From NCBI RefSeq assembly GCF_041260155.1, contig NC_091944.1:11597272-11661271 (forward strand): a DNA stretch of 64,000 nt, written 5' to 3'. A model generated the notes under the pieces. That model worked only from the letters and a program-made list of their open reading frames with translations. It had not been told where the DNA came from and ran no database searches. Positions 9,376 through 42,291 of the stretch are shown piece after piece. The translations under genes and the position numbers were made by a program. The stretch is from Ptychodera flava (Eukaryota; Hemichordata; Enteropneusta; Ptychoderidae). How positions within the stretch are numbered: the stretch's first letter is position 1; every line of letters begins with the position of its first letter.

Positions 9376-9497
9376 ATAGCCGATGCCAACAACAGTTCCA
9401 GTAAGGGTCCCGAAGATCTGCCAAACGAACTAGCTGAAGGAGACACATCGTTGAACAGATCAAATGTACCTCTGGACACGAACAAACCAACAACCAG
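9376..9497 (+). pseudogene. Start-less first-exon relic upstream of copy B
   Basis: A 122-bp frame beginning at ATA where ATG is expected. It reads I-A-D-A-N-N-S-S-S-K-G-P-E-D-L-P and ends ...KPTTR at an AG|GTAAAA donor in phase 2, exactly as the true first exons do. The leader GCGACAACC just before it matches the leader before the ATG of the other copies. There is no in-frame ATG upstream before a stop. Copy D has the same exon at 36410-36531, also with ATA, still open. It is either the first exon of a lost family member or an inactivated alternative first exon. Confidence 0.55.
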
Positions 9498-9844
9498 GTA
9501 AAAGGCATTTTCTCCTTTGCTTTAATCATGCTTTTATAAAGTTGGCTCTTTTCCTATGAATCATCAAAACTTACGCAGAAAATCTAGATTCTCTATAAAT
9601 TGACAATTTCCCCGCTCAAATCTGAATGTGAAACATCTTGATACAACTTATACAACTTATTGCAAATTCACCTAACAAATTTTTGCATGGTCCTTTTAAA
9701 CAGCTAACCTGTCCCCTTGTAAACCGTAGTTGTAAGTGTACAACACACTAAAATCTTGGGAGTAAATATTGCTCTTCCTTGAGACAACACGGTATCCTAT
9801 TCGTCAATAAATACTTACACACGTTTCAGGATACCTTAGATAGG

Positions 9845-10048
9845 GTGGACCAATGAGAGCTCATTATACGGAAAAAATACTTCATTTACGTCAGTACATT
9901 GTTTGAACAGAAGATCAAACCATAGTGTTCTCAAATTCCTATAGTGCCAAGGGCGTGAGAAAAGAAAACTGTGGCCATAGATAGCCACACTAATCCACCT
10001 TACCAGACTCACAGCCAACTATATTTGCGACAACCATCTGCCTGCAAA
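9845..10048 (+). promoter_or_regulatory. Promoter and 5' leader of copy B
   Basis: GACCAATGAGAGCTC (from 9848) lies about 200 bp before the ATG and is repeated at a similar distance before copies C, D and E. It contains a CCAAT box. Downstream the conserved blocks GAACAGAAGATCAAACC and GTTCTCAAATTCCTATAGTG follow. No clear TATA box. Promoter status is inferred from conservation. Confidence 0.45.
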
Positions 10049-13000
10049 ATGAGTCGAGAACGTCCAACCGAAATTGGCAAACTTAATGATCATGATCAAA
10101 CGGCTCCTGAGGCTCAATATCAACTGTTGCCAGAAGAACGACCAAATGGCTCGGATAGGAGGTACAAATTCAATTGTTCTCCTTAGAGTAAGTATGCTAT
10201 TCTAAATAAACAGGTTCCTTCAGTTCTGGTGAACAATTATGTATATATAACGACTGCCTTCATTTTTTCTTATTTTCGCATACAAATTGATCATTTTAGT
10301 AACACTAATGAAGTGTTGTTAGGAGTGAACAGAATCAAGTCTTCTCCGGTAGAATCTAACGTATTCAGGCATTCGCTTTTCTATTTTTCACCGGACGATC
10401 TCTTGGGCCATAAATTATGGGGTATGAATTCACTGAAGGAGAAGTAGACGTTTTAATGTTTGTGCAACCATCTATAGCTAGCTACGAAACTACTACAATG
10501 AAAACTAAGATTTCATGTCAAACATTGCTGGGAACTGGACGAACTCGCTGACCTTAATTCATAGGTTATGAATTAACTGTATTTGCGATTGTTTGAGCAA
10601 TCGAAACCAGACTACCAATTGAACTATTTCAATGTGATGATTTCAAAGCCTGACAGACACTCAACTGAACATGGCACAACACAACAGCTTCTAGTTAAGT
10701 TTCATACTCTCTCCAATAAAAATATCAAAGCACACAAGAAGTCCAAAGTTGTACCTTCATGGGGAGGTGGCCTATTAATTCTGGGCCTCGTCTATCAATT
10801 GCTGCACAATAAGTAAAATGACAATGTCACTTAAGCGAAGAAGTGCGACCAGTTTATTTATCAACACCGATGTCGAATTATCTAGCATGGCTCTACTTTC
10901 TTATTTCCAGGGATCTCCATACTGCATATGTCATAAAAGTAGTGAACGATTGGCTTGGCAAAAATATAGCCAGACAGGTTAGACAAAAATAGTCAAGATA
11001 TTTTCAAAGTCAAACGCACTTGAACGATTGGGACTTTACCTGTGCCAGCCTACTTGTTAAATGTCAGCGTATAAAATCACCGATCATCACTTGTTAAATG
11101 TGAGATATTTGAATTGTACAGAAAATCCTTGTGTCAACAATACATTATTGCGTATAATTGCAAAAATCCTAGATCAATATATAACACTGTACATTTAAGA
11201 ATTACATGATCAGCAATCTAACATGCGATGCATGCATCACGTTTTTCCCCTGAATTTTACTTACATACATTTCTCCATTTTATTTCACTCGAGACCTGAC
11301 ACATCAAAAAGCTTGGAGATCATGAGGAGAATAATTATCGTTTCGAGCTTCTTTGTTGCGATGTTCGGAGTAGGACTGAATTACAGCATTTGGTGGACAC
11401 TGGACGACTTGAAGTCATTCTACGATGTTTATAACTTCTATCAAGACAGCGCAGATATAAAATGGATAGTTTACATCAATATTTCCATTACATTTTTCAT
11501 GGGTAGGTTTATTTGAACTTCTCAGTCGACCAACTTTAAGATATGTAACCGCAATTCTGATTCAACCAACCCTATGGCTTGACAGATACTGCTGCTAAAT
11601 GACAAAGGCCATTACACCCCACCCCGGCACTTTTCGTTACCATAATAATGTCATACTCTTGAGATCAATGATTTCTCTTGTGTGATGTAGAGACCTGTTA
11701 AATACGGAGTGGTAACAACGGGTTTATCGTCGGCGGTCGCCTTAGCACTGTGACCATCACAACAGGTAACAGGAATTACTAGAACATTCTTCAATCGAGG
11801 TTAACTACACCGTTGTACCAAAAGAAGATCTTACGTTTTATTTGAATAGTTTCTCTCCATCACTTTTACAGGTTTAGTTACCACAAAATTTATGGATATC
11901 GAAAATAAACGTTATCATTATTTGGTTTGTATCGGCGGTGTCATATCGATGTTTGGCCTCTTTTCGTCCCGCTATGCAGGTGACGCCACCATCCTCTTTG
12001 TAACTATGGATTTATAACAGGTAGGAATCGTGAATTCCGTTTTAGTACTTTAAAACGTTTTCTCAAGGTTAAATTTATATGTATCTTGTAATTATTTTTG
12101 ACTTATGTTGAAAGCTTCCTGTGCTATCAATTCATATTATACCTTCAATTGATATGATACCTTCTCTCGTCCAGAAAGTTGACATTGGGAATAAATTGAG
12201 TCAGATGTTAGCTGATAATATCACGAATAAATAATTAATATATCTATTTCATCTTAGGTGCTGGATTTGGACTGATGCTTCCACCTAGCTTGGGTCTGAT
12301 CCTCAAACATTTCAACACAACGGTATTGGTTGCTGTAGTTATGGTAGCAAGCATTTGCTTGTTATTCGTACCACGTTTATTAGAGCACGTCAAAGAATTG
12401 TATGGGAAGAGAAGCATGTTTGCTATTCTGACATGTCTATATGGTCAGTTAACATGTATTCTTCTCTTCCTGTCTCTTCTTTTCTTAATCTTTACTCTGG
12501 AAATTGAATTTCCTCAACGTCCATCTAACGGAAACAATGTGAAATGCTTGAAATGTAATTTTAATTTGCTGATAAAACCTCTGATATTCAACATGGTGAT
12601 TGCTGCTCTCTTGATCGGTATGGGTCAAAACATCATGGTTTTACATCTAAAGCAGATTGCAATACAAAAGGGAGCTGGTGAAAGAGATCTACAAATGTCA
12701 CCCATCTATTACGGAAGCGCTATGATATTTGGATGTTTAAGCTTCATAATAATTCATTCAAGATGCAATGAAGGGAAAGAAGATAACACAATGATTATAA
12801 ATCTTTGGAAATTTGGTGTGTCCCTTATTGCAGTCGTGTTGCCGTCATCGGTAGCGTTCAAACTAATTCGTTTTCCGCATTTATTGGAATAAATATCATC
12901 AGTGCTGCTGGAAGCGGTTTTTACCTGCCCTAGATGTTCGTTCTTCTCAAAGCGTTTTGCAAGGAACGAGACGATGAGAACCAGGGACAATCTGAGACTG

Positions 13001-13639
13001 AGATCGAGGTTCTTAGATTTATTCTCCCAGCTTTCGGAATAGGAGCCCTTGTTGGACTACCCATTGGAGGTAATTGTAAATTCCATATTATGGTTTCTCT
13101 ACAAATCGACATACCTCGTCTGTAGTTTTGGTTAATGCTAATTTTTCGCTAATGTTACAATTTAAGGATGATAAAATGTTAACATATTAGATCGAGTTAC
13201 TTTGTTGTCTGGTATCACATGATTTTCCGTAATACTCGAAAAAGAATTGTACTATAAGAATATATTTCCGAACTCGTCAGTTGTATAAAACATTCGTATC
13301 CTTTCCGTTCGGAACTGGACGTTCTAAATCCCATTCCTGACTAATGAAGTTTTAAAGCGTTTAGAGATTCATAAAACTTATGTGAATAATTTCTTGCTAA
13401 TTATTTCATGGTTTTCAACCTCTCATTGCAGACATACTGAATACAACCTTCGGTAATGGCAGCAGCTACTATCTTGCTGGCGTAACATTAATTTTAGCAT
13501 GCCCTATTGTTCTGGTGAGAGGCCATCTCAAACCGTCCAATGGGGATCGCAAAGTGATACTAATAAACAAGAAGTTGATGTTACACAGCGAGAATCTTCA
13601 CTTTCAGATGATGAGGCGATAAGTCAAGTTCCGCGTTAA
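10049..13639 (+). pseudogene. Transporter copy B (type II, MCT/SLC16-like), five exons, broken
   Basis: Exons: 10049-10161, 11294-11502, 11872-12020, 12258-13069 and 13432-13639, with GT-AG borders and the same phases as copy C. Type II differs from type I by a different N-terminus (MSRERPTEIGK), a shorter start of exon 2 (RPDTSKSLEIM) and a longer C-terminus in exon 5. Frame breaks relative to copy D: one base lost in exon 3 near 12005, one in exon 4 near 12835, TAG at 12931-12933 in place of a leucine codon, and one base lost in exon 5 near 13567. Exons 1 and 2 are open. The family fold is as for copy C. It is probably not functional. Confidence 0.7.
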
Positions 13640-14842
13640 GATCACTGCCCTAGACCGAGAAGGCCTAAAGCTGCCCCATCAGTTTATAGAGGCTTGAAGA
13701 ATAGTGAGCAAGGGATGGCATCAATGATTGTTTACTTCATTGAAAATATGACAATATTAAGAGGGAAATCCTTGTCTAATGTCTATAAATGATTCTTCAA
13801 GTAATTAAAATGTTGCTATACTACAATATCCCGGTAAAACGAATACAGTTTTTACTCATAAACTATCATAACGAGTACCCCCTTTGCTTTCCTGTGCATT
13901 GAAAATATGACTATATTAAGAGGGAAATCCTTGTCTAAAGTTGCATTTGACGACCCTGCAATTACATTTTGCGGGTTAGCATTAGGATTAGTCGTAATGA
14001 CGTTCTTTTACTGCTTTATAAATTTGTATTGTACTCATGAGGTCTTTCATGATCTGATTGTCGCTTTCGTTTCATTGGAAAATGCAGCATTTTCACCAAA
14101 CATATTAAATACGACGCTTCTAATGGTATATTCTTTATATTGAGTCAAATCTGCAGATTAAATATTTTCTCAAATATTTGTGAAACTCTAAGTTGTGCTT
14201 CATTGCTAATTTGGAATAAAGGTCAATGATAAGCTTAGAAATTATTTTATAATTTTGTATAAGCGATCGTAAGTCATTATCAAAAAGAGATAAGATCTCT
14301 CGATCAGTATTTTTAACTTTTGCCTCTTTTTCCTTGAGTAGTGATGCACATCGTTCCACGGTTTGCTTTTGTTGTTGTTTAAGCTGAAACATACTTTGAC
14401 CGTAAAGCCCGATGGAGCTGCACATACCGAATCGGTCCACTAAAAGCAGCTCCGAGGCCTCAATCTCATTTCGGATATTTGCGATACCATCATTTAACTT
14501 CGCTTCGCCAACACCGAGAGAACAAAGTGTTAATGTGTGCAAACCTCCGTCATCTCATAATCATAGTGATTGTTCCTTGGTGATAAGTGTTTATGGCCAA
14601 AGTTTCCATTAATGGCCAACGCGATGGCAATTACCTACTTGTTTGATTTCTTACAGTTCGTATCGACCTGTGTCTTCCATAATTTGCTCGTAATTTTTGA
14701 GATTATCATTGACCTTTATGTCGAATTAGAAATGAAATACGAAAGGGAGGAAAACCGTATAAAGGAGAAAAATAACAAGGGATGTAATACAGTGTGTCTG
14801 TCTCAACTGCAAATTACATTCATCCTTTATTGATAGGACGCA
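13640..14842. other. 3' flank of copy B
   Basis: Contains a ~39-bp direct repeat (13740-13779 and 13899-13938) ending GGGAAATCCTTGTCTA. A 78-codon hydrophobic frame at 13907-14143 is nearly identical in the D flank (40912-41124), but so is the surrounding DNA, so this does not show selection. A 135-codon minus-strand frame (14135-14542) rich in Lys, Gln and Glu is degraded in the D flank. Neither is called as a gene. Confidence 0.35.
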
Positions 14843-15287
14843 TATATGCGTATAATTAGACGTTTGTGTCTGTTTGATTAATATTCGTTCAAGTGTTTAC
14901 ACAGGTTTATATTGTCTACATCAATTCTGCAAAACAATCCCACCATTTAAAGTTTACGCTATGGGACCAATATCACCAGAGCCAAATAAGCTGGCTATCG
15001 CTAGTTTTTTACCAAGTTTTTGATATATTTCTTACTTATACTCAACGGTTATTTTTTGACGTTTGCTTTACATTTATGGGCAAACTTTGACTTTGTTTCC
15101 GTCAACTGGTAATGTTCAACATATTGAAGATATTTCTTCGAAGACAAAAGTCTTTAATGACCAAAATTGTAGTTTGTATTTCGTTGATTTTGACACGGTT
15201 TTTGTCAGTTTTATACTTTTAAATACTGAATGTTTTCAACAGTCCTAATTTAGAAAAATGGAAATTAGAACTGCTCTTGCAGTGATG

Positions 15288-15354
15288 GATAGATAGATAG
15301 ATAGACAGATAGATAGATTCGTAGAATGATGGATAGGTGGAAAGATAGATAGAT
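15288..15354. repeat. (GATA)n microsatellite, B unit, interrupted
   Basis: Two GATA runs separated by about 20 bases, at the same relative place as in the other units. Confidence 0.9.
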
Positions 15355-15734
15355 AAATGACACTCCTTATTGTCATAACTGTGACCTTGAGAATGGTTGA
15401 AATTTTAATGTTTTTGTGACTCTTCACATGAATTTTGTAGTCAGAACTAGGAACCCGACTCAAACAGATGGTGGCGCTACTGTAAGAGCAGAACAATATT
15501 TCGACAGCGTGTACAACACGAGAGGATAGTTCACCAATACAGACTGAACTAACAATGCTCGATTTCTAAACACCATATATGCTTGTCCTCTCCATACGTT
15601 CTTTATTTGTTCGCTGTTATTCCATATCGGCGTACGTGACGAAATGGATTAGGAAACGGAAACTCGTACATTTCCTCAAATGCGGTAACCGCAATTCAGG
15701 GTGCGAGGTTAATAGCCATTGTATTAATAATACA

Positions 15735-17561: not shown

Positions 17562-20500
17562 ATGAGTGAACAGATTGAAATCGAAATGGCCGAAAGTGCA
17601 GAGGTTCAAAAGACGCAAGACACCCAACATTCACTGTTGAAAGGACAACAAGAAAAGGAATCAGATAAGAGGTAAAATTCAATGGTTCTGCTCTGAGTCT
17701 AGTATGCTTTTCTAAATAAGCGGGTTTGGTCTGTTGAATCATTACGTAAACTATGTTACGATTCCCTTCCTTTGTTCTTATTGTCTCCTGCTAATTGACA
17801 ATTTACCGCGAATTAGGTGTCGTTGTAAAAAGAATAAATCCTTGTCCGATAGCGTCTAACGTTTTCAGGCAGTGATCTCTAGGACCATAAATTATAGGAT
17901 ATACATCGAGTGTAGGAGGTTGCTTGTGCAACCGTCTATGACTACCCGCGCCGCCAACTACTATAGTGGAACGATTTCCATAACAAAACCATCCTAGGAA
18001 CTGAACTGGATGAACTCTTGGACTGTATTTGCGATTCCTTGAGCAACAGAAAGCGAACTACCTATTTAGAACTATTGCAATGAGATGGTTTTCATAACAA
18101 AGCAGGATTTACCTTATGTTCATGATATCTATGGCAAAACTCCGTTTCCAGCAGACATTAAACCGACAATTTGAAGCGTTACCTAGTAGAATACGGACAT
18201 ACAAAGATTTTAGACCCCGTTCAATGCGATTCGGCTTATCTGGCACATCGATCAACTTAACCTAAATTCTGCCGCATATCACTGACGGCTATGTTGCAGC
18301 CCACTTGAAACATATGCTCGCCCTCAGCAGTTGAGACGAACAAAGTTCAGGTAAGCGACATATATTGGCTTGCAAGGAGTAGTAAGATAGATTTACTTTA
18401 TAATAACCTGGTTTATTTGCCATTTGACTACGAGTTCAAAAGGTTAAACTTTCCTGTTTACTAGATACAGATTCGTATCACTGGGGACACTCAATGGAGA
18501 AACAAAGTAGCTATACACTCACCACGTCATATACCGGGCCTCGTCTATCAATTGCTACCCAAGGAGTGAAATGACAGTGATGCTTACGCGAAGAAGTGCA
18601 ACTCGTATACTTGTGACTGTCAGAGCCAAATCATCTAAGCTTCTAGGGCATTCCATACTGCATATGTCATAAAAATTAGTGAATAATTAGCTTGTGCAAA
18701 AATATAGCCAGGCAAGACATAAATAGTCGAGATATTTTAATGTCATTCGCAATTGAACTGCTATTAGGATTTTACCAGAGCTAGCCTACTTGTTCTACGT
18801 AAGCGTAAATCATCTCTTGTAAATGCAATGCATTAATTTGTGTAAAACATCCCAGTGTCAGCAGTACAATGTCGGGGATAAATAGCAATAATAACATGGT
18901 AAGCAGTTCAACAAACGATTTATGTCATCATGTAAATCAGTAATCAATCAATCAATCAATCAATCAAAAGCATTTATATAGCGCCAAAATCCATTACGAG
19001 GTAATGTTCTAAGGCGCTGAACAAGAACACAAAAATCAAAAAGCTCTCTCAAAGAGATGCGATTTCAAGCCCTTTTTAAAGGTGATCAACGTAGGCGACT
19101 GGCGAAGTTCCAACGGAAGACTGTTCCACAAATCGGGAGCACATCTTGAGAAGGAGCGTTTCCCATACGTTTGCAGGTTACACCGTGGCACACTAACTTA
19201 CATTTTCTGTTTTATTTCACTGGGGACCAAAGCAGTCAACAAGCTGGCGAACCAAAAATCTTGAAGAACATTATGAAGAACATTAAGAACATTATCAGCA
19301 TTTCGAACTTCTTTATTGCGATGTTCGGAGTCGGGCTGAATTACGGCATTTGGTGGACACTCGATGATTTGAAGTCATTCTACGATGAATATAACTTTTA
19401 TGAGGAAGGCAAAGATGTAAGATGTATGGTTTACATCAACATTTGTATTACATTTTTAATGGGTAAGCGTTATTCAAACTTCTCAGTTGACCAACTTTCA
19501 GATATTTAACCGCAATTCTGATTCAACCAACCCTGTGACTTGACTGATAATGCTGCTCATTAACAAAGACCATGGACATCTTCAACCCACTTCGGCAATT
19601 TTCGTTTTCTGCCGTACTCTTCAGATCAATGATTTCTCTTGTGATGTGGAGACCTGGTTAAAGCGGAGTGGTGAAACGGGTTTACCGTCGCGGCTTTCGC
19701 CTTGGCACGTAATCTCGTCATTCTCACAACAAGTAAACTAAATGACTAGAACTTTCCTCAATCGAGGTTAAGTAGCCACCATTGTGCAAAGAGAAGATCT
19801 TACGTTTTATTTGAATATTTCTCTCCATAACTTTTACAGGTTTAGTTACCACAAAATTTACGGATATTAGAAATAAATGTCTTCAATATTTGGTCTGTAT
19901 CGGCGGTATCATATCCATGTTCGGGCTCATTTTGTCCTGCTATGCAAATAACGCCACTGTCCTCTATGTAACCTATGGATTTATAACAGGTAGGAATTTC
20001 AGGGTTTAAAACTTAATCGCATAGTCCCGTGTTACAACGTTAAAACTGATTTCTCAAGGTCAAATGCATATGCATATCGTATTTCGTAATTTCTATATGG
20101 CCGATGTTGAAAGATTCCTCTGCTATTAATGAACAATATGCCATACCTTCTACCGTCCACAAAGTTGATGTTGAGAATAAATTGAGTCCGATGTTTGCTG
20201 ATAATGTCACAAATAAACAATTCTCTGTTTCATCTTAGGTATCGGATTTGGACTGATGCTTCCACCTAGCTTTGGTTTGATCCTCAAACATTTCAAAGGA
20301 TTTGCATTGGAAGCAGTTCTTGCTATTGCTTTTATGGTGGCAAGCATATGCTTATTATTAGTACCACCTTTATTTGAGTACTGCAAAGTAATTTATGGTA
20401 CAAGAAGCGTGTTTGCCATTCTGGCGTGTCTATACGGCCAGTTAATATGCATTCTTCTCTTACTATCTCTTCTTCTCTTGTTAAAACCTCCTCCATGTGA

Positions 20501-23500
20501 TACATCATGTATGGTAAACAAAATGAAATGCTTGAAATTTTCTTTGCTGATAAAACCAATAATATTCGACATGGTGATTGCTGCCCTCTTCATCGGTGTT
20601 GGCCAAAACATCATGGTTCTACATCTAAAGCAGCTCGCAACGGAAAAGGGAGCTAGTGAAAGAGATCTACAATTGTCACCCATCTATTACGGAAGCGCTA
20701 TGATATTTGGATTATTGTGCTACGTAATATTTCCTCCGAGGTGCAAAGGAGGTGAAAAAGATAATATTAAGCTTATGAACCTTTGGAAATTCGGTGTGTC
20801 CCTCGTTGCAGCTGGTGTTGCCGTCATCGTTAGCATTCAAACTAATTCGTTTGGCGCATTTTTCGGAATTAATATCATCAGTGCTGCTGGGAGCGGTTTT
20901 TACCTGCCCTTGATGTTCGTTCTTCTCAAAGCGTTCTGCAAGGAACAAGACGATGGAAACCAGGGACAAACTCGGACTGAGATCGAAGCTCTTAGATTTG
21001 TTCTCCCGGCATTTGGAATAGGAGCTTTAATCGGACTACCCATTGGAGGTAATCGTAAATTTCATATCACGGTTAAAATCACAAGGATTTCTTCATAAAT
21101 TTGTTGCACTGTTTTTTCTGATGTTAACTTTTTAGAATCATTTTCAAATATTAACATATTAGATTATATGATATATTTTGTTATTCGGTGCCAAATTTGT
21201 TTTTCCTCGATACACTTGAAATAGAATAATGCAAAGAAATATCCTAATGTTGTAATATATAGGTAAGGATTGACTTTTATATTTCGGCTATTTAATTTTG
21301 CAGAAAAATCGGTACTCCATTTCATTTGGAGATTCGACCCTGAATCTGAATACAGAGATGATTCCAATTATAATAGATATATTTGATTACCGAATAAATT
21401 GCTGTTTAGGTACATACCTTATGGTACGAGGGTACGTCATGCACCGAATACGCATGCGTACCCTCGCACTATAAGGTGTGTACCAAAGCAGCAATTTATT
21501 CGGTAATTAAATCTATTTGCCATAATTTCGTGCTTGGCGAAGTTTGCGAAGCCACAAGGTTGCGTGGACACGGCCTCAAGTTTCAGGTTATATCTCTCAA
21601 TCTTACAAAAAATGTATTTTACCGATATTTTTTGCTGCTTTCTTGCGTTTTACGCTGAATAAGTCACAGGACAGATCTTCCTGCCCCAACACGTCTCTGT
21701 GATGGGAAACGTTGTCATGAGGTCAGAAAGGTCTGTTCTGACCGAAATTGCGCAAAAAAGCAGCAAAAAATGTGAGTAAAATATTTTTTTTGGCAAAGCT
21801 GATAGATTGGAAAGAGTGACAACACCGACGTAGCTTCTTTTGGAAAGTACCGTGTGTTGTGCCCCCTCCCACACTCTCACATCAGAGCGCCGCTAGCCTA
21901 ATGCTATGGGACGAGTGCGAAGGCATCAGGCAAAACGTTCGAACTGCAATGATCAATGATACTGACTAAAGCGGCTATCGATAGTTACCATGGATATGCA
22001 GACGTTTCGATCGATTGGTATTGGCAAGTTGATAATAGAACCTCGAAACATGGATATAGTTGCTGAATCTGTAGGCATGGTTTGGAGGTTACATGTGAGA
22101 GGGGCCGTGGCCGTGTCTCAGTGTAGTCTCATTGATATCATGAGCAATCATTTCGGGTTTTTCATGTCATTTCCATGACCACTCAATCATGTCAATTTCT
22201 GACCGGAGTTCCAGGGATGGAGTCAAACTTGTAGTCCGTGGGCTGGAGGGGCCTACCGTTCACCCCCCCCCCCAATAAACCTACCACATGGGTATTTTTT
22301 TGTTTTTTTGGATCTGCTAAACTAGAAAAAAGATGTTAACATTGGATATTTTGGGATGCACTACCTGTCTGCACTGGTTTTTGATTTGTATGTACCGCAA
22401 AAAATGGCGAAAAATGGGTAGGGGTAGGGGGTACTATATCCTCCCCTAAATTGAGTAAACTAGCATGAAATAGCACAAACCTTACATTTTTTGAAAGCTC
22501 AGATACTGTTCTTTCTGAGGAATACCAACTTTAGCAAAATTAATTTGTGTACATAGAATAGGACGACTTTAAAATGATTTTTTTTGACAATTTTGAAATT
22601 TTTTACCCCAAATACCATGTAACAATTGTGATTTACTTTTTATTAAGCAAAATTTTCACAACTTTTTGTGTTTAAATTATTTATTCCGACATATTAAACA
22701 AGAAAAAAAGTGTTAACATCAGATATTTAACTATACACTACTTCTCTGGCGTCAATTTTGAATTGCGTGTATCTGTATGGGGTGTGCAAAAGCTAGGGGT
22801 AGGGGTACAACATTCTTTCCTTGATGAAGTAAACTGGCTTGAAATGCCATATACCTTATAGTTTTAGAAAGCTTAGATACTGGTCTTTCTAAAATACATA
22901 AGTTTTTAGAAAAAAAATATGACGTCATATAATTGGATGACTTTAAATCGATTTTTCTGGTAATTCAGCAATTTTAACAAGAAGAAAATACGATAACTAT
23001 TGTTTCCTCCAAATGAAGCAAATCAAACAGATGTATGGATGTTATTTAGTAGTTGCAATGTGCTGAAGAAGAAAATAAATGTCAAAATTGGGTATTTACA
23101 ATGCATTATTGTCTCTACTCACTAAATTGCAAGTTTTGCTACATTTGTATATCGTGAATGGGCATTTTTATTGTTATGCAATGAACTTCAGTAATGCACA
23201 GCCTTAAAAAGAAGACTTTAAAACGCACACACATAGTCATATTGCCATTTTCTCCTTAAAGTAAATAGATTGTTGTTGACTGTCATATTATGTAATTTAC
23301 TTTTTAATATCTTTTTATAAAATAATTTTGATGAGACGTATTTGGAAAATTGTCTTTTCCTCCTTGTCTTACTTATACAGCAAGCATTGTTAACAATCTA
23401 TTAGGCCGACGGCTAGAGGGGGCATCTACGTGCACCTCCCCCCCAACCGCACAGAATAACAAACCTGTATTTTTCAGAAGCCTTGGGATCCCTAGAATAA

Positions 23501-26500
23501 GAAATAGGATTTTAACAGACAAAATATAGGGACTCAATAGCTGTTACGGTCATGTTTGGAAGGGTACCGCAAAATCACGATTTTGTGACCCACATGGATT
23601 TTTGTCAAACCTGTCTTCATGTACGTCATCTGCTGAGCTTACTGTTTAACATGACCTGGCTTATGGGGTATCATTAGAAAGGTGATTTATTCTTCTTGAA
23701 AATAGTATATAGCAATATGCAATATCTTCTACACTTTTCATGGAATAGGGCCATAATTTACCCCATACCCCAAAGTTAATGTCGCAAAATTACTGTCAAA
23801 ACTAATCTAAATTCTACCAATTATTTACCTAGACATCATACAAAGGGCAATGCTGTGTATAAAATTTGTGTTATTTGCTGCAGGTACATGTTAGAAACCT
23901 GAAATAAACTTTTGAGAGAAAAAATATTGGGATCATGTAGCTGTAACAGTCATATTTTGAAGGGTTCCGCAAATCACAGTATTACTGAATCACGTTCGTT
24001 TTTGTTAAATCTGTCTTCTTGTAAGTCTTCTGCTGAGCTTATTTTGAACATAACGAGGCATATGCGGTATCATTTGAAAGTTAATTTACTTTTCTTTAAA
24101 ATGATATATTGCAATATGCAATATCTTCTATAGTTTTCATGAAGTGAGACCAAAACTTACCCCATACCCCAAAGTTTTATGTTGCAAGTTACAGTCAAAA
24201 CTAATGTCAAATTCTACCAATTATTTTCCTAGACACTTTACAAAAGGCAATGCTTTGTATAAAATATATTTTATTTGGTACAGGGACATGTCAAAAATAT
24301 GAGTTAGACTTTTAACAGACAAAATATTGGGATTGAATGACTGTTACTTGCATGTTTTGAAGGGTACCGTGAAGTCAGAGTATTACCGACTCGCATATGT
24401 TTTTGTTAAATGTGTCGTCTTGTAAGTCATCTGCTGAGCTTACTTTTTACCATAACCTAGCTTATGGGCTGCCATTGGAAAGACAATTTATTTGGCTTTA
24501 AAATGACATATTGTAATATACAATATCTTCTATAGTTTTCATGAAATAGGACCAAATCTTACCCCATACCCAAAAGTTTTATGTCGTAAATTACTGTCAA
24601 AACTAGCATTTAATTTTGAAAAATTCTATAAAAAAGACAAACTTTGTATGAAACCTATTTTATTTATAAAGTTAAAGAGACATTTCCAACTATGAAAGAT
24701 ACAATAACAGGATAATTATTGCGATTTAATAGCTGTTAGCATCATGGTTTGAAGGATAGCAGGATATGTTGCTGAAACCCGTGAAATTTTATTAAAGAGG
24801 TTTCCATGAAATTATCTGCCAACCTTTATTTTGTCCATAACCCAGATTGTAGGGTATCATTACAAAGATTTTATCACTCTTATTTTTAGCATATCATAAA
24901 GTGCATTATCATCTTAAGTTGTAATGAAATAGCAAAAACCTCATCACCCCAGCCCTTAGTTTGATTTGCAAACTACATCTGTTCTAAAACTTTGCAGTTT
25001 GCGAATTTGGGATATGGGGTAAGTTTTGGTCCTATTTCATGAAAACTATTGAAGATATTGCATATTACAATATGTCGGTCGCTTTCTGGCAAAAATTGTC
25101 TTTCCAATGATAGCCATAAGAAAGGTTAGAGTAAAAAGTAAGCTCAGCAGATGACTTACAAGATGACACATTTAACAAAAACACATACGAGTGGGCAAGA
25201 CTGTGACTTTACGGTACCCTTCAAAACATGACAGCAGCAACCATTCAATCCCAGTATTTTGTCTGTTAAAAGTCTATCTCATATTTGTGACATGTCTCTG
25301 TAGCAAATAAAACAGATTTCATACAAATCATTGTCTTTTGTAATATGTCTAGGTAAAAGTTTGGTAGAATTTGAAATCATAGTGACAGTAATTTGCAATA
25401 TAAACTTGGGGTATGGGGTAAGTTTTGGTCTTATTTCCTGAACACTAAAGAAGATATTGTATATTACAATATGTTATATCTAAGGAAAAAAAAACTTTTT
25501 TAATGATACCTCAATAGCCAACTTATGGTAAAAAATAAGCTCAGCAGATGACTTACAATAAGACAGGTTAAACAAAAACTTATGCGAGTTGGCAATACCA
25601 TGATTTTGTGGTACCCTTCAAAATATTACTGTTACAGCTACAGCATCCCAATATTTTGTCTAAAGTCTAATATTTTGACATGTTCTTGTACCAAATAAAA
25701 TATATTTTATGCAAAGCATTGCCTTTGTAAAGTGTCTAGGAAAATAATTGTAGAATTTGACATTAGTTTTGACTGTAACTTGCGACATAAAACTTTGGGG
25801 TATGGGGTAAGTTTTGGTCTCACGTCATGAAAACTATAGAAGATATTGCATATTGCAATATATCATTTTAAAGAAAAGTAAATTAACTTTCAAATGATAC
25901 CGCATATGCTTCGTTATGTTCACAATAAGCTCAGCAGAAGACTTACAAGAAGACAGATCTAACAAAAACGAATGTGATTCAGTAATACTGTGATTTTGCG
26001 GAACCCTTCAAAATATGACTGTTACAGCTACATGATCCCAATATTTTTTCTCTAAAAAGTTTATTTCAGGTTTCTAACATGTACCTGTAGCAAATAACAC
26101 AAAGTTTATACACAGCATTGCCCTTTGTATGATGTCTAGGTAAATAAATGGTAGAATTTAGATTAGTTTTGACAGTAATTTGCGAAATGAACTTTTGGGT
26201 GGGGTAAATTATGGCCCTATTCCATGAAAGTATAGAAGATATTGCATATTGCTATATACTATTTTCAAGAAGAATAAATCACCTTTCTAATGATACCCCA
26301 TAAGCCAGGTCATGTTAAACAGTAAGCTCAGCAGATGACGTACATGAAGACAGGTTTGATAAAAATCCATGTGGGTCACAAAATCGTGATTTTGCGGTAC
26401 CCTTCCAAACATGACCGTAACAGCTATTGAGTCCCTATATTTTGTCTGTTAAAATCCTATTTCTTATTCTAGGGATCCCAAGGCTTCTGAAAAATACAGA

Positions 26501-28189
26501 TTTGTTATCCTGTAAGGTTGGGGGGGGGGGGGGAGGTGCACGTAGACGTCCCCTCTAGCCCATGGCCTAATAGATTGTTATTAATGCTTGCTGTATAAGT
26601 AAGACAATGAGGCAAAGACAATTTTCCAAATACGTCTCATCAAAATTATTTTATAAAAAAATATTTAAAAAGTAAATTATAAAAATAGACAGTCAACATC
26701 AATCTATTACTTTAAGGAGAAAATGACAATATGACTATGTGTGTGCGTTTAAAAGTCTTCTTTTAAGGCTGTGCATTACTGAAGTTCATTGCATAACAAT
26801 AAAATGACCATTCACGATATACAAATGTAGCAAAACTTGCAATTTTAGTGAGTAGAGACAATAATGCATTGTAAATACCGAATTTTGACATTTATTTTCT
26901 TCTTCAGCACATTGCAATTACTAAATAACATCCATACATCTGTTTGATTTGCTTCATTTGGAGGAAACAATAGTTATCGTATTTTCTTCTTGTTAAAATT
27001 GCTGAATTACCAGAAAAAATCGATTTAAAGTCATCCAATTTATGACGTCATATTTTTTTTCTAAAAACTTATGTATTTTAGAAAGACCAGTATCTAAGCT
27101 TCCTAAAACTATAAGGTATATGGCATTTCAAGCCAGTTTACTTCATCAAGGAAAGAATGTTGTACCCCTACCCCTAGCTTTTGCACACCCCATACAGATA
27201 CACGCAATTCAAAATTGACGCCAGCGAAGTAGTGTATAGTTAAATATCTGATGTTATCACTTTTTTTCTTGTTTAATATGTCGGAATAATAATTTAAACA
27301 CAAAAAGTTGTGAAAATTTGCTTAATAAAAAGTAAATCACAATTGTTACATGGTATTTGGGGTAAAAAATTTCAAAATTGTCAAAAAAATCATTTTAAAG
27401 TCGTCCTATATTATGTACACAAATTAATTTTGCTAAAGTTGGTATTATTCAGAAAGAGCAGTATCTGAGCTTTCAAAAAATGTAAGGTTTGTGCTATTTT
27501 ATGCTAGTTTACTCAATTTAGGGGAGGATATAGTACCCCTACCCCTACCCATTTTTCGCCATTTTTTGAGGTACATACAAATCAAAAACCAGTGCAGACA
27601 GGTAGTGCATCCCAAAATATCCAATGTTAACATCTTTTTCTAGTTCAGCAGATCCAAAAAGAACAAAAAATACCCATGTGGTAGGTTTATTGGGGGGGGG
27701 GGGTGCACGTAGGCCCCTCCAGCCCACGGACTATTGGTCTCTGGCAGTTTCCAGTCAGATGTAATTCAAAGTTAAGTATATGGCGGTAGTTCCGTGTAAT
27801 GATATTAACCGGGCCGTAGTTCCCTGCACAAGCCTGGATGTAGTAGATTATTCAAAAGAGCTAACAAATCATTGAAATTCGTTCGCACTTCAGGTAACGG
27901 ACAATTTTTCTAGTCTCAACTATCTCTACTTGAGACTTAAAAAATTGCTCATTTCACCTGAAAGTTGCGCACGGATTCAGTGATTTGTTAGCTGCTTTTG
28001 AATAAGTTGAGTATATATGATTTTCAAACTCTCTTTGCAGACGTATTGAATACAAACTTCGGTGATGGCAGCAGCTACTATCTCGCCGGTGTGACACTTA
28101 TCTCAGCATGCCCTTTAGTTCTGGTGAGGGGCAATCTCAAATGGTGCAAAAGGGGTCGGGAACTGGCACAGGATAATCATGAACCATGA
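17562..28189 (+). CDS. Transporter copy C (type I), divergent MCT/SLC16-like carrier, intact
   Basis: Five exons: 17562-17671, 19236-19462 (a start at 19233 is also possible), 19840-19989, 20239-21048 and 28041-28189. All are open, giving 481 aa. The N-terminus is cytoplasmic and polar (MSEQIEIEMAES). About 12 membrane spans follow: span 1 near residues 55-77, spans 2-4 to ~176, spans 5-6 to ~250, a Cys-rich central loop, and spans 7-12 to ~460. YVTYGFITGIGFGLMLPPS in span 4 and the end of exon 4 with the start of exon 5 (GLPIGG, then DVLNTNFG and YYLAG) match MCT-family carriers. The usual MCT span-1 signature (DGGWGW) is absent, so substrate cannot be inferred. Intron 4 is ~7 kb because of a palindromic insertion. 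An unspliced exon 4 would end after NRKFHITVKITRISS. Confidence 0.72.
18930..19195. repeat. Interspersed repeat in intron 1 of copy C
   Basis: Starts with an ATCA run (18940-18966), then CATTTATATAGCGCC and, about 40 bp later, AAGGCGCTG. Copies A (near 530) and E (near 45585) lack it, so it is a recent insertion close to the exon 2 acceptor. The ATATAGCGCC motif is common in dispersed repeats of marine invertebrates; the family is not certain. Confidence 0.5.
21380..21835. repeat. Two hairpin elements in intron 4 of copy C
   Basis: Copies of the inverted repeats described for copy A: the first at 21380-21513, the second at about 21592-21835. Both are nearly identical to those of A. Confidence 0.55.
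22232..27733. mobile_element. 5.5-kb nested fold-back (palindromic) element
   Basis: The ends are TAGTCCGTGGGCTGGAGGGG and its complement; TTG lies on both sides (22229-22231 and 27734-27736). Copies A and E show the uninterrupted site CAAACTTGGTC. The arms are ~2.7 kb and meet at about 24985. A second, related terminus, TAGGCCGACGGCTAGAGGGG, sits inside at 23402 and mirrors at 26569, so one fold-back lies within another. Poly-C/poly-G tracts mark each terminus. No ORF suggests a transposase, so it is non-autonomous. A 3-bp duplication fits several DNA-transposon superfamilies. Confidence 0.85.
23521..26448. repeat. Inverted arrays of ~395-bp tandem units
   Basis: Within the fold-back, units start near 23521, 23921, 24322 and 24711 in the left arm and mirror near 26448, 26051, 25661 and 25262 in the right arm. 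Each carries a TATTGGGA...AGCTGTTAC...TTTGAAGGGTACC block, GTCATCTGCTGAGCTTA, and CTTACCCCATACCCCAAAG. The innermost left unit is clearly more diverged than the others. No frame stays open. Confidence 0.8.
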
Positions 28190-29399
28190 GGGAGTGAGAA
28201 TCTTGGATGTCAAATGATGAAGCGACAAGATGATGGGGTACATCTTAGGATGACTATCCTAAACCAAGGAGGCCTATAACTACCACGGCAGCTTGGAAAG
28301 GCTTATAGAATAATGAGCTCAAAGAAAATGAACATTTAGCAAATAGTGTACTCTATAGACAACAGTATTTGCTTATTCTATAATTTAGATGTTCTTAAAA
28401 TAATTATAAAAAGTTACAAATGCGCATGCACTGACTTACTATGGTGAATATGTTAAGAATGTCCCAGGAGAACAGGTTCAAATATTGACTCACAACCTAT
28501 CGAAAAAAGTGTGCCATTTGTTTCTTAGTCAGAAATAGGAGAAAACTTTACGGAAAATCCTAATTTGTTATTGCATTCGATAACCCTGCAACCATACCTG
28601 TAAAGATAAGACACATTAACTTGATTGTATTGTTACATAGAGCTTAACTTACTTTATGTTGACTTTAATGATCTGAGTTTTTCTTTGAATTTGTTACGTG
28701 AGCACATGAAGTAGTTTTACCAATATATGAAATATGAGCTTCGTAGTGCATGTTCTTTACATTGAATCAATTAGAGGAAAACTGTGTCTGTAACAGCTTT
28801 ATTTTAATATTTAATCTTGATAAGACGCGTATATGCGTGTAATTAGCAGTTTGTGTCCCTTTGATTTGTACACTTCCCATAATTCAATTGTTTGCACAGG
28901 TTGGTATGTAAGTGTGTATATATATATACAAAAAAAATACGCCAATACAAGTTCACGCTATGGAACCAATGTCACCAAAGCCATATCAGCAGATGGTTAT
29001 CACGAATTTTTACCAACTCCTTTGTTAGATTTCTTGCTCCGAAATTGTTTTAGACGACTGCTCTACTTTTATGGAAAGACAGTGATTTGTTTCAGTACAT
29101 TGGTCATGTTCAATATTTTGGAAATATATTTTTTAAAGGAAAGAGTTTTTCTAGGGCCAAAATCATATGTTGAGTTTAATTGATCTTGTCATTTTTCTTC
29201 GTCGTGTAATTATACTTAAATATTTTCTTAAAAGAAACACGATATGTTTTCAACGGTCTACTTTTATTTAGAAATATGAAAAATCGTTTTAGAAATATGA
29301 AAATCGGAACTGCTTTGGCTTGCGCGTTAACCATATATTTTTACATTATGTGTTTTGTCGATTGACTTATCTCCTTCTTGTATGTATATATTATTGAGT

Positions 29400-29454
<55 letters not shown>

Positions 29455-30114
29455 GACACTTTACATTGTCAAGGCTGTCATTAGACAAGGTTGAAATTTT
29501 ACTCTTTTATGATTCTCTATTTGGAATGAGAGGATAACTGACTAATATATATCAAACTAAGAATGCTCGATGTCAAAAAACCATAAATGCGATGTTGGCC
29601 ATTTTTCAGTCTCTTCGAATAATTTTAAATACTCAAAAACTATGTATTTCAGAGTATTTGACCATTAAGGCTTGTTCGTATTGTTTCTATGTCTCTCTAC
29701 TGTTGTAACCTTGTGTCTGTATTTCTACTAACAGCCCTCGGTGAATGACCATGGCTGTACATTGGAAGTCATTATTAATAAATAAATAATTAAAAAATAA
29801 ACATGTACGTGTTCCCGTATGGCTTTGGAAATTATTTTTCGGGAAGGGTAACATTTTGAGCGAATTTTTGTCTCTTAGATAGCGATGAGCTTAGTGTTTC
29901 ATTTCTCTGTAAACTTAAAAAGTACGATACCGTTGAACCAATACAATACCACAGAAGTTGTCGACCTTTGAACTAATTATGGCGTAACCGTACCAATTTT
30001 TGTACAGAAACTAGGCTGAAACCGAAACTACATACAGTTTACTACTGTTGAAGTCTTGCTACACACCACTCTATAATAGCGTACTCCATATCTGCCAAAT
30101 TTTATGAAGAAAAT
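28190..30114. other. 3' flank of copy C
   Basis: Parallel to the A flank (4344 onward), including the GATA run at 29398-29454 and an AATAAATAA stretch near 29780. The short frames, such as the one at 28833-29183, are not coding-like and shift between copies. Confidence 0.4.
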
Positions 30115-30700
30115 CTCTCTCGTTCACTGCCGCCACTGAAATCTCCGAACAGCTTACTCTTAAAGCGACGACGAATAACTACAGAAGGGCACGTGCGAAT
30201 TAGTTTTAGTAACATCATTTAAAATGTGTATAGTTACAAAAGCTAGCGGTAGGGATATCAAGGGATGGCAGCCAGCAGTAGTTGAGACACTGGCGCGTTG
30301 TGGTCGAAATGCTTGCCTAGATTTTGTAAACATAAATATCACCGTAAGAGGCACTATGTAAAAGGCCTTGGAAAGTCATACTATGTTTTATTACTTCGGC
30401 TATTGAACAACCTTCCTCAACATTCACAATCATTATGTTTACTGTACATGCAGCAAAAAGGCAACTAGAAGATGTAAAGCTAGTTTCTGAAGATCCAAAG
30501 TCCAGTCTATCAAGTACGCGGCTATAGTAATTTGACTCTCACTTCTGATGACCTGACCCCACCGGTTCAGGCCGATCAACGTTTTGGGTAATGTGATGAC
30601 AGTAGATTGAGTTAAAAGGCCTCAATGTTTTGTAAATACATGTATGGACATATTGAGAATTTGACGCGGGAAAGCGAAGGGCGCACTGCCAGTCACATCG
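30115..30700. repeat. ~600-bp segment, C-unit copy
   Basis: C-unit copy of the repeat at 6226-6850, with the same start and end motifs. Confidence 0.5.
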
Positions 30701-30983
30701 TTGGGACCAATTTGTGAAATTAGGATAAAACCAAAACGGCTCTTAACTACAATGGAAATCTTCCTTATCACCACACAAGAATAGCGTGCTACATTACTGC
30801 AAAATATTTTTACGATTCTCGCCAGACAACACACAACTTGATGATAAAATGCTCAATAGATATGTGACGTGCCAAAAAATTACGTTTAAGGTGAAATGAG
30901 GGACAAATGCGTCGAAAGAGGTAAGTTTCTTATTAGTACAGAATTGATGTGTAAAACGGGCAGAGCTTCTGACTTTACCTTGG

Positions 30984-31439
30984 ATGCATGATCAGCTGCC
31001 TATTCTAAGTCTCGTAGCACTCTCTCCTCAGTTTGGTGAAGTCATAACCGCAGCTGAGAAATGTAAGACCTCTAATGCTGTGGAGACTGTCAGTTTTGAT
31101 GTCAATGTATTAAATTGTCGGATTATTCCCACAAAACATTTGCACACAACAGTCGGTCACAGTTGTCGGAAGTACCTTGTCCTGTATGAATCATTTATGT
31201 TGAGTCAACCAGGACTGCGGAATGAGGTCGATATCGACACACAATTAAGTGCTCACCTTAAAACTGCTTTTCGGACACGATCGGGTGTTGTCTGCAGAAT
31301 TGAAGTAATTGTTGGCAAAACTGACCAGTTTGGTCTATTTGATACACACTCTGTTAATTCTGAGCATTTGCAGGAACTTGGTACACTGATTACTGTGGCC
31401 GGCCATTGTTCAGCAGATAACATACAGTACCAGCGCTGA
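30984..31439 (+). CDS. Conserved ORF of unknown function (151 aa)
   Basis: Starts MHDQLPILSLVALSPQFGE and ends ...SADNIQYQR. It has five or six Cys and a mixed, soluble-looking composition, with no signal peptide or membrane span. Partial copies exist at 7097-7420 and at about 52514-52640, where the array ends within it. I do not recognise the family. Its 3' end overlaps an open frame on the other strand (31410-31640), so at most one of the two is likely to be a real exon. It could be an exon of a gene caught in the duplications or part of an old element. Confidence 0.3.
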   Translation: MHDQLPILSLVALSPQFGEVITAAEKCKTSNAVETVSFDVNVLNCRIIPTKHLHTTVGHSCRKYLVLYESFMLSQPGLRNEVDIDTQLSAHLKTAFRTRSGVVCRIEVIVGKTDQFGLFDTHSVNSEHLQELGTLITVAGHCSADNIQYQR

Positions 31440-31640
31440 CAGCATAATAGAGAATACAGTCCGCTTTGACCTTCTATTGCTACGTTTTTGCTTAGCAAGT
31501 CCATATTTGTAAGTCAATGAAACCATACTTGCAGAGTCGATGCTTGTTGGTGTCACGCTGACAGGGAGCAGATCGTCGACTATTGCCATTGCATTCTTGA
31601 GATTGGCAGTAAATTCAATGAAAACAGAACCATATTTGAC
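31410..31640 (-). CDS. Possible terminal exon of an unknown gene (minus strand)
   Basis: After a plausible acceptor (TTTAACAG|GTC) the minus strand is open for 76 codons, starting VKYGSVFIEFTANLK, then PTSIDSASMVSLTYKYGLAK. It ends with a basic run NRRSKR followed by a hydrophobic tail (SIMLSALVLYVIC), as in a furin-type site followed by a membrane or anchor segment. The A-unit copy is inside the palindrome (about 7801-7968 on +) and stops earlier. Family unknown. It competes with the plus-strand ORF. Confidence 0.25.
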   Translation of the reverse strand, partial: VKYGSVFIEFTANLKNAMAIVDDLLPVSVTPTSIDSASMVSLTYKYGLAKQKRSNRRSKRTVFSIMLSALVLYVIC

Positions 31641-31679
31641 CTGTTAAATATAGTCTGACGCTAGTACGTACGCCATCTT

Positions 31680-35900: not shown

Positions 35901-36408
35901 CAAGTAATATTCCATCTGCACCTGCTTATGGTGTGTACATGTCTCAACTTCTCAGGTATTGTAGGGCTTGTGATTCCTACGCTGATTTTCAACTGAGACA
36001 CAGCTCATTGGCATCAAAATTACTGAGACAAGGATACACAACAAAAAGACTCGTTAGGACTTTCAAAAAGTTCTACGGTCGATATGACGACATTGTGATC
36101 AAATATGACAACTCGGTCACTCAAATGATTAACGACAGCATTCCCGGATTTGACTTATTACAGTGATTCATATCCTGTATCATTTCATACAATATTTAGA
36201 CAATTTTGGGACCAATCCTGACGGGTGTGGCATGCTATCAGGGTACGCTTACCCGTTCCGGACACTGGTACCACCACTAATTATCAGTGGTTCAGGATGG
36301 TCCTACTTTAATTTGTAAATCACAATTGTCCCATGGGCCTGGTAATATATTACCTTGAATGGAAATGATAATTGGACTAGTTTAATGTCATATTGGGATA
36401 ACCTTCGA
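35901..36408 (+). mobile_element. Remnant of a reverse-transcriptase element (3' part)
   Basis: The frame at 35897-36166 reads SSNIPSAPAYGVYMSQLLRY then LRHSSLASKLLRQGY and TFKKFYGRYDDIVIKY, which I recognise as the usual C-terminal end of reverse-transcriptase proteins found in many marine invertebrate genomes. It is a 5'-truncated fossil. Its downstream tail includes GGGTGTGGCATGCTATCAGG. The B unit has no insertion at the equivalent place (near 9360), so it post-dates the B/D duplication. Likely a non-LTR family; not certain. Confidence 0.6.
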
Positions 36409-36409
36409 A

Positions 36410-36531
36410 ATAGCCGATGCCAACAACAGTGCCAATAAGGGTCCTGAAGACCTGCCAAACGACCTAGCTGAAGAAGACACATCGTTGAACAGATCAAATG
36501 TACCTCTGGACACGAACAAACCAACGACCAG
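36410..36531 (+). pseudogene. Start-less first-exon relic upstream of copy D
   Basis: Counterpart of 9376-9497: the same 122-bp length, ATA at the start position, open frame (IADANNSANKGPEDLPND) and phase-2 donor AG|GTAAAAG. The reverse-transcriptase remnant lies immediately before it and separates it from its promoter-like block (ATGACCAATGAGAGAATTCG near 35713). Confidence 0.55.
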
Positions 36532-36867
36532 GTAAAAGGCATTTTTCTCCTTTGCTTTCATCATGCTTCTATAAAAGTTGGCTCCTGTCCTATGAATCAT
36601 CAAAACTTATGCAGATAATCTAGGTTCTCCATAAATTGACAATTTTCCCACACAAATCTGAATGTGAAACATCTTGATCCTTTATTATTGCAAATTCACC
36701 TTTCAACTTTTTGCATGGTCCTTTGCGACAACTAACCTGTCCCCTTGTAAACCGTATAGTTGGAAGTGTACGACACACGAAAACCTTAGGTGCGAATATA
36801 GCTCTTCCTTTAGACAACACGGAATACTAATCGTCAATAAATACACATTTCAGGATACCTTAGGAAC

Positions 36868-37048
36868 GACCAATGAGAGCTCGTTATACGTCAGTACATT
36901 GTTTGAACAGAAGATCAAACCATAGTGTTCTCAAATTCCTATAGTGCCAAGGGCGTGAGAAAAGAAAACTGTGGCCATAGATAGCCACACTAATCCACCT
37001 TACCAGACTCACAGCCAACTATATTTGGGACAACTATCTGCCTGCAAA
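36868..37048 (+). promoter_or_regulatory. Promoter and 5' leader of copy D
   Basis: GACCAATGAGAGCTCG at 36868 (CCAAT box) about 180 bp before the ATG, then the same conserved blocks as in copy B. Confidence 0.45.
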
Positions 37049-40000
37049 ATGAGCCAAGGAAGTTCTATCAAAATGGGCAAAATTAATGATCATGGTCAAA
37101 CGGCTCCTGGCGCTCAAGATCAACTGTTGACAGAACAACAACCAAATGGCTCGGATAGGAGGTAAGAATCTATTGTTTTCCCTTGAGACAAATATGCTTG
37201 TCTAAATAAACGGGTTCCCTCTGGTGAACCATTAAGTATATGTTACGACTGCCTTCATTTGTTCTTATTTTCTCATACAAAGTGATCATTTCAGTACCAC
37301 TAATAAAGTGTTAATCGGAGTAAACAGAATCAACTCTTCTCCTATAGCGTCTAACGTATTCAGGCATTCACTTTTATTATTTTTCACCGGATGATCTCTT
37401 GGGCCATAAATTATGGGGTATGAATTGACTGTAGGAAAATAAGACGTTTTTATATATGTTTGTGCAACCATCTATGTACGGAACTACTATAACGGCATGA
37501 TTTTCATTTCAAAACATTGCTGGGAACTGGATGGACTCTGGGACCTTAATTTATAGGGTATGAATTAACTGTATTTGCCATTGTTTGAGCAAACGAAACG
37601 GGACTACCAATAGCACTATTACAATGTGATGATTTCCAAGCCTTACAGATACTCAACTGAGCATGGCACAACAAAACAGCTTCTAGTTATGTTTCATACT
37701 CTCTCAAATAAAAAATATCAAAGCACACAGTGGCAAGAAGTCCAAAGTTGTACCTTCACGGGGAAGTGGCCTATTCATGCCGGGCCTCGTCTATAAATTG
37801 CTGCACAATGAGTAAAATGACAATGTCACTTAAGCGAAGAAGTGCGACCAGTTTATTTATCAACACCGATGCCGAATTATCTAGCATGGCTCTACTTTCT
37901 TATTTCCAGGGATCTCCATACTGCATATGTCATAAAAAGTAGTGAACGATTGGCTTGGCAAAAATATAGCCAGACAGGTTAAACAAAAATAGTCAAGATC
38001 GATATTTTCAAAGTCAAACGCACTTGAACGATTGGGACTTACCTGTGCCAGCCTACTTGCTAAATGTCAGCGTGTAAAATCATCCCTTGTAAAATGTGAG
38101 ATATTTGAATTGTACAGAAACCCCTTGTGTCGACAATACAATATTGAGTTTAAATTGTAAAAATCCTAGATCAATATATACCACTTTACATGGAAGAATT
38201 ACATGATCAGCAGTCTAACATACGATGCATGCATCATGTATTTCCCTAGATTATACTATCATACATTTCTCCATTTTATTTCACTCGAGACCTGACATAC
38301 CAAAAAGCTTGGAGATCATAAAGAACATAATAATTATTTCGAGCTTCTTTGTTGCCATGTTCGGTTTCGGGCTGAATTATGGCATTTGGTGGACACTGGA
38401 CGACTTGAAGTCATTCTACGATGATTATAACTTCTCTCAAGATGGCAAAGATATAAGATGGATGGTTTACATCAATATTACCATAACATTTTTTCATGGG
38501 TAGGTTTATTTGAACTTCTCAGTCGACCAACTTTAAGATATGTAACCGCAATTCTGATTCAACCAACCCTATGGCTTGACAGATACTGCTGCTAAATGAC
38601 AAAGGTCATGGAAACCCACCCCGGCACTTTTCGTTACCATAATAATGTCATACTCTTGGGATCAATGATTCTGTTGTGTGATGTACAGACCTGTTAAATA
38701 CGGAGTGGTAACAATGGGTTATAGTCGGCGGTCGCCTTAGCACTGTGACCATCACAACAGGTAACAGGAATTACTAGAACATTCTTCAATCGAGGTTAAC
38801 TACACCGTTGTACCAAAAGAAGATCTTACGTTTTATTTGAATAGTTTCTCTCCATCACTTTTACAGGTTTAGTTACCACAAAATTTATGGATATCGAAAA
38901 TAAACGTTATCATTATTTGGTTTGTATCGGCGGTGTCATATCGATGTTTGGCCTCTTTTCGTCCCGCTATGCAGGTGACGCCACCATCCTCTTTGTAACC
39001 TACGGATTTATAACAGGTAGGAATCGTGGATTCCGTTTAACTACTTTAAAGCTGTTTTCTCATAGCAAATGCATATGTATATCGTATCTTGTAATTCTTT
39101 TTTTGGCTTATGTTGAAAGATTCCTGTGATATCAATTAATATTATTCGATTCCTTCTCTCGTCCCGAAAGTTGACATTGGGAATAAATTGAGTCAGATGT
39201 TAGCTGATAATATCACGAATAAATAATTAATATATCTATTTCATCTTAGGTGCTGGATTTGGACTGATGCTTCCACCTAGCTTGGGTCTGATCCTCAAAC
39301 ATTTCAACACAACGGTATTGGTTGCTGTAGTTATGGTAGCAAGCATTTGCTTGTTATTCGTACCACGTTTATTAGAGCACGTCAAAGAATTGTATGGGAA
39401 TTGAAGCATCTTTGCTATTCTTGCGTTTCTATATGGTCAGTTAACATGAATTCTTCTCTTCCTATCTCTTCTTCTGGTAATTAAATTTCCTCAACGTCCA
39501 TCTAACGGACACGATGTGAAATGCTTGAAATGTAATTTTAATTTGCTGATAAAACCTCTGATATTCAACATGGTGATTGCTGCTCTCTTGATCGGTATGG
39601 GTCAAAACATCATGGTTTTACATCTAAAGCAGATTGCAATGCAAAAGGGAGCTGGTGAAAGAGATCTACAATTGTCACCCATCTATTACGGAAGCGCTAT
39701 GATATTTGGATGCTTAAGCTTCATAATAATTCCTCCAAGATGCAATGAAGGGAAAGAAGATAACACCATGATTATAAATCTTCGGAAATTCGGTGTGTCC
39801 CTTATTGCAGTCGGTGTTGCCGTCATCTGTAGCGTTCAAACTAATTCGTTTGCCGCATTTATTGGAATTAATATCATCAGTGCTGCTGGGAGCGGTTTTT
39901 ACCTGCCCTTGATGTTCGTTCTCCTCAAAGCGTTTTGCAAGGAACGAGACGATGAGAACCAGGGACAATCTGAGACTGAGATCGAGGTTCTTAGATTTAT

Positions 40001-42250: not shown

Positions 42251-42252
42251 GT

Positions 42253-42253
<1 letters not shown>

Positions 42254-42291
<38 letters not shown>

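Follow-up and report, generated by a model that had tools for sequence, protein, structure and literature searches.

It has long been asked how the long inverted arms of fold-back elements originate, how they lengthen and what keeps them alike, and this question is posed by a 5,502-bp near-palindrome at positions 22232-27733 of the window analyzed here (i.e., the whole 64-kb stretch of DNA). The near-palindrome is very probably a non-autonomous fold-back DNA transposon, and the question that it raises is how arms that carry two pairs of related termini, one inside the other, came about.

The window looks animal-like in its genes, which include BTB and GNAT genes and a major-facilitator gene repeated in an array of duplicated blocks (blocks A to E, about 1-8231, 9359-15730, 18410-31661, 36393-45584, and 45068-52635, respectively). 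Major-facilitator-like reading frames, one of which was scanned against Pfam, and many GATA-type microsatellites occur in the array. When one of the BTB proteins encoded in the window was compared with solved structures, it matched BTB domains only. The similarity among the blocks is patchy, as though copies exchanged sequence. Other inverted repeats are also found in the array. Block A contains a second, short palindrome at 7335-8231, whose ~449-bp arms align with 3 mismatches over 453 columns, 9 of which are gaps; it has a single match in block C (31224-31667) and may be an inverted duplication or an assembly fold. An inverted-repeat element of ~350 bp lies at the same place in A (1464-1813) and E (46532-46885), with 9/349 differences, and is missing from C near 20132, although C and E differ there at only 4/500 bases just to the right; its absence from C may be attributed to loss or to gene conversion among paralogs. 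MITE-like self-complementary stretches of ~140-165 bp are common to paralogous blocks (27848-28005, 4003-4159, and 49081-49222; 21366-21527 and 3025-3188).

The near-palindrome lies in block C and has no counterpart in blocks A and E. A sequence-only reading of this DNA had described a 5.5-kb palindrome with TTG on both sides and clean empty sites in A and E, and our analyses confirmed this description of a fold-back insertion with a 3-bp target duplication. The outer ends of the element are inverted, are identical over 20 bp and start with TAGTCC. TTG adjoins the element on both sides (22229..22231 and 27734..27736, neither assigned to a strand), so that the site in block C reads CAAACTTG, then the element from TAGTCCGTGGGCTGGAGGGG to CCCCTCCAGCCCACGGACTA, then TTGGTCT..., while the empty sites in A (near 3890) and E (near 48981) read CAAACTTGGTCT with a single TTG. 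When the two 300-bp flanks were joined, the resulting 600-bp query aligned unbroken to block A (603 columns, 94.9%) and to block E (613 columns, 81.7%); within the 64-kb window, this query found no match across the insertion site in blocks B and D. The bases immediately outside the inverted ends are not mirrored, which makes the ends exact and identifies TTG, within ACTTGGT, as the duplication. As a single copy of the element is seen in the window, its mobility is deduced from the empty sites and the target duplication.

Within 22000-28000 there are 52 inverted-repeat pairs, the outermost among those listed being 22232-22330 with 27635-27733. Self-alignment, the check proposed beforehand, recovered the inverted arms of 22232-27733, with 25215-27733 aligned to 24758-22232 at 91.5% over 2,556 columns. 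The earlier description of two ~2.7-kb arms that meet at about 24985 holds as a layout. It does not hold as a close match, which at ~97% extends only to near 24300; from this point to the center, 150-bp bins of a straight end-to-end alignment of the arms show 25-43% difference each, as the tandem units of this part are not aligned in register.

From end to center, each arm consists of a terminus, two tandem units of ~377 bp, ~350 bp of further sequence, an inner terminus and tandem units of ~400 bp, and can thus be described as an outer and an inner module, each headed by a terminus that is followed by tandem units. In the left arm (+ strand), the outer terminus at 22232..22299 comprises the 20-bp end, a short shared segment and a C run, and it matches the right end and aligns in a four-way alignment of the termini. 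The two ~377-bp units at 22300..23060 were identified by profile matches and by the alignment of 22300-22747 with 22677-23116 (65.7%, E 4e-47). In the remainder of the left outer module (23061..23401), a profile search of that module found no further full unit and returned a weak partial unit match of 4.1 bits. The inner terminus at 23402..23500 is related to the outer one, as 23402-23544 aligns with 27733-27598 (64%, E 8e-9), and is followed at 23501..24985 by the ~400-bp units, i.e., three full units (U1-U3) and a partial, strongly diverged fourth (U4), which were delimited by repeat alignments, the profile and the unit tree. The orientation of the units flips at the head-to-head arm junction, placed approximately at 24986..25005 without a strand (~24985-25005). 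In the right arm (- strand), the same types of evidence delimit V1-V3 and a partial V4 at 25006..26463. They are followed outwards by the inner terminus at 26464..26569, which was identified by the terminus alignment and by the match of 26569-26420 with 27733-27598 (66%, E 4e-10), by the outer module at 26570..27645 with two tandem units of ~372 bp (27645-27230 with 27273-26862, 65.2%, E 2e-42), and by the outer terminus at 27646..27733, which was placed by the terminus alignment. Folded as single-stranded DNA, the central 1,100 bases are predicted to form a long hairpin; this prediction, computed without shuffled sequences for comparison, is given no weight as evidence.

No transposase had been seen in the element before, and none became apparent here: the longest of the 24 open reading frames (ORFs) of at least 50 aa that overlap the element encodes 76 aa, and none of the 10 of these 24 ORFs that were scanned against Pfam reached the cut-off. 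One match to DACNV, which at 13 bits (E 0.12) stayed below the cut-off of 27, was not taken as real. Nothing in the 64-kb window reached the gathering score of an Rfam family. Patterns made from the termini and units had 0 matches in a collection of genome contigs and in three of four viral contig searches, and a search for distant DNA similarity in phage and plasmid collections found no match; as all of these collections consist of prokaryotic or viral DNA, little can be read from the absence of matches. The one viral contig that was matched aligns with the units of the element over no more than 24 bp, in a single place, and its other matches among the up to 10 listed per query are of 16-17 bp with E of 0.5 or more, so that it was taken as a chance match. 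In the literature search, no paper was found that joins fold-back elements with a 3-bp duplication, and among the matches listed for the terminus strings none was about transposons by its title.

That a second, related terminus starts at 23402 and is mirrored at 26569 was also pointed out previously, and it is indeed present on both sides. The right and left inner termini differ at 3/20 bases. All four termini have most of the 20 bases in common, followed by a short CTAC-containing stretch, which is altered in the left outer terminus, and by a C run. The similarity between outer and inner modules exceeds chance in 2/4 comparisons, right inner with right outer (150 bp, E 4e-10) and left inner with right outer (143 bp, E 8e-9); the other two comparisons gave no match at a limit of 1e-3. 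The tandem units of the two modules are a different matter, as a profile of either the ~377-bp or the ~400-bp family gives no significant match in the other. The 400-bp profile scores at best -1.8 bits on the outer module, and the 377-bp profile at best -1.9 bits on the inner one. Of 300 shuffled versions of the left outer module, 120 were matched by the 400-bp profile, at best with 1.1 bits. Three weak cross-matches are in phase at the unit starts, with scores no better than those of the shuffles.

Further analyses revealed that the element is layered in its divergence. The recent outer tract, which runs across both modules, differs between the arms at 71/2,061 aligned bases plus indels. Counted by module, the arms differ at 36/1,161 bases in the outer module and at 24/820 in the inner module to 24226. 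From 24226 to the center the straight end-to-end alignment gives 202/732 differences, and the unit tree indicates that in this region it compares units that are not closest relatives. The tree pairs U1 with V1, U2 with V2 and U3 with V4, each with 100% bootstrap in IQ-TREE and with support of 1.000, 1.000, and 0.985, respectively, in FastTree, and it supports no partner for V3 or U4; from this pairing it follows that the units had already multiplied when the arms were last made to match. In the same alignment, the identity is 98.0% for U1/V1, 97.5% for U2/V2, and 83.7% for U3/V4, and pairwise alignment of the U3/V4 core pair shows 39/279 differing bases. For comparison, C and A differ at 12/497 and 15/498 bases adjoining the insertion site (27/995 over ~1 kb of flanks) and at 98/2,077 and 256/3,836 bases over longer flanks (354/5,913 over 5.9 kb). 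The core pair is more diverged than the near flanks (p 2e-11) and than all flanks (p 2e-6), whereas the outer tract is about as diverged as the near flanks (Fisher p 0.32) and less diverged than the longer ones (p 5e-6). Judged from these counts, the core unit pair looks older than the outer arms; the fold-back core would then predate the insertion in C, and the outer tract would have been homogenized near the time of insertion or later. It should be noted that this clock is soft, because paralogous blocks exchange sequence: to the left of 20133, C and E differ at 44/499 bases, and to the right C and A differ at 37/499, against the 4/500 between C and E given above. Along the 2.1-kb tract, the positions at which the arms differ are clustered (dispersion 2.84; 0/2,000 random placements as high). 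The first 60 bases of each module are richer in differences than the rest of the tract (14/120 versus 57/1,941, p 3e-5), but 6 of those 14 form one run at the C tract, possibly a misplaced gap, and 8 of the 71 fall at 24297-24309, where the tract ends towards the center; we draw no strong conclusion on the clustering.

The sequence-only reading had interpreted the two pairs of termini as one fold-back built into another. As a history, this would mean that a 3.2-kb fold-back (23402-26569) was inserted at the exact center of a loop-less fold-back of ~2.3 kb with related ends. Such true nesting, which would leave the identity of the element as a fold-back transposon untouched and competes solely with the history proposed below, was not borne out, and we regard it as possible but on the whole unlikely. 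It would account for outer and inner parts that have the same kind of ends and different unit families. By eye, the outer arms would also form a perfect 20-bp palindrome if one AT were a 2-bp duplication, but any mirrored flank that ends in a self-complementary dinucleotide allows the same. The inner termini are flanked by mirror images (CTAT/TAGG and CCTA/ATAG), and the 3-bp direct repeat that was looked for at these flanks is absent; a repeat of odd length is impossible from a mirrored flank. A single tract of ~3% divergence spans both modules, and outer arms of 1,170 and 1,164 bp require insertion at the exact center or later homogenization.

A history in which one arm gained a terminal module, which was then copied from arm to arm, fits at least as well and is narrowly preferred to true nesting, as it needs no insertion at the exact center. 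In this proposed history, tandem units would have multiplied first, and a central fold-back would then have formed. One arm would next have gained the outer terminus, by duplication of a terminal module or by capture of a related end, and ~2.1 kb of this arm would finally have been copied onto the other by hairpin-primed repair or gene conversion, which would mirror both modules and erase any duplication at the inner ends. The mirrored inner flanks are the expected trace of such copying, whatever came first, and the sequence therefore does not demonstrate that a fold-back jumped into a fold-back. Duplication of a whole terminal module predicts that the unit families are alike, yet the profiles find no significant cross-match between them, which speaks against a simple duplication of this kind and leaves the capture of a related end. 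A transposase encoded elsewhere would bind the GC-rich terminus that both modules share, possibly also the tandem units, cut at the TAG/CTA ends and join the element to a target cut with a 3-bp stagger.

The palindrome might instead have been made in place, by inverted duplication of one half after an ordinary insertion. The divergence of the outer arms, which is near that of the closest C-A flanks, would be in line with this, but the 39/279 differences of U3/V4 against 27/995 (p 2e-11) and 354/5,913 (p 2e-6) in the flanks make at least the core appear older than the insertion, although by a soft clock, and formation in place is accordingly quite improbable. Long palindromes are hazardous for assembly, but a folded hairpin or chimeric read is a very unlikely, indeed barely credible, source of this one because the arms differ by ~3% (71/2,061) plus indels and the core pair at 39/279, V3 and U4 are unpartnered in the opposite arm, and the insertion has an exact target duplication and exact empty sites.

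Growth by gain and copying may have a wider bearing on the question raised at the outset. We suggest tentatively, as a doubtful proposition when taken in all its parts, that fold-back arms can grow outwards when one arm gains a related terminus and serves as the template from which the other acquires it. Both pairs of ends, at 5.5 kb and at 3.2 kb, would then be usable, and the element could be mobilized at either, by a 3-bp-duplicating transposase that would be new to fold-backs of such build. The locus is a layered record, with an older core, a recent outer tract and two generations of ends, beside two empty paralogous sites, and the order of events is thus testable once other copies are seen.

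Among known systems, the target duplication is TWA in PIF/Harbinger, 3 bp (TNA) in Tc4 and 7 bp in Galileo, and the ends of CACTA/EnSpm start with CACTA or CACTG. The element resembles Tc4 in the length of its duplication; TTG conforms to neither TWA nor TNA, 7 bp is longer than its 3 bp, and TAGTCC does not agree with the CACTA/EnSpm end motif, so that we rejected PIF/Harbinger, Tc4, and CACTA/EnSpm as assignments. The length alone would agree with PIF/Harbinger, for which the literature gives duplications of 2 or 3 bp. For Tc4 of nematodes and tardigrades, the target in the part of the source available is CTNAG, to which ACTTGGT does not conform, and the title of a reference cited there indicates a fold-back structure, which the element shares (PMC11071193). 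The Zator superfamily, as described in the excerpt available, also has 3-bp duplications, a likeness in length alone and in a feature that is not unique to Zator, and is defined by its transposase (PMC10045372); no Zator transposase is seen among the element's ORFs of at least 50 aa, with Pfam run on 10/24. Galileo, a fold-back-like member of the P superfamily, is similar to the element in build, with tandem repeats inside inverted arms that, according to the same partial source as for Tetris below, carry extra transposase binding sites, and differs from it in belonging to the P superfamily (PMC4079207). By analogy of its tandem-repeat arms, Tetris of Drosophila virilis is a close analogue. 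As far as the available text describes it, Tetris is a fold-back without a known transposase whose long inverted arms have an outer flanking domain followed by tandem repeats of ~220 bp that vary in number; unlike the element it has 8-10-bp duplications, for which its authors suggest Mutator, an assignment that we rejected for the element with its 3 bp, and no nested second terminus is mentioned in that text (PMC4079207). Long inverted arms with direct tandem repeats and a target duplication at insertion (TTG, with two empty sites), two features of the fold-back class, are both found here; the element is thus of an ordinary kind, a fold-back transposon, and its nested build is unusual.
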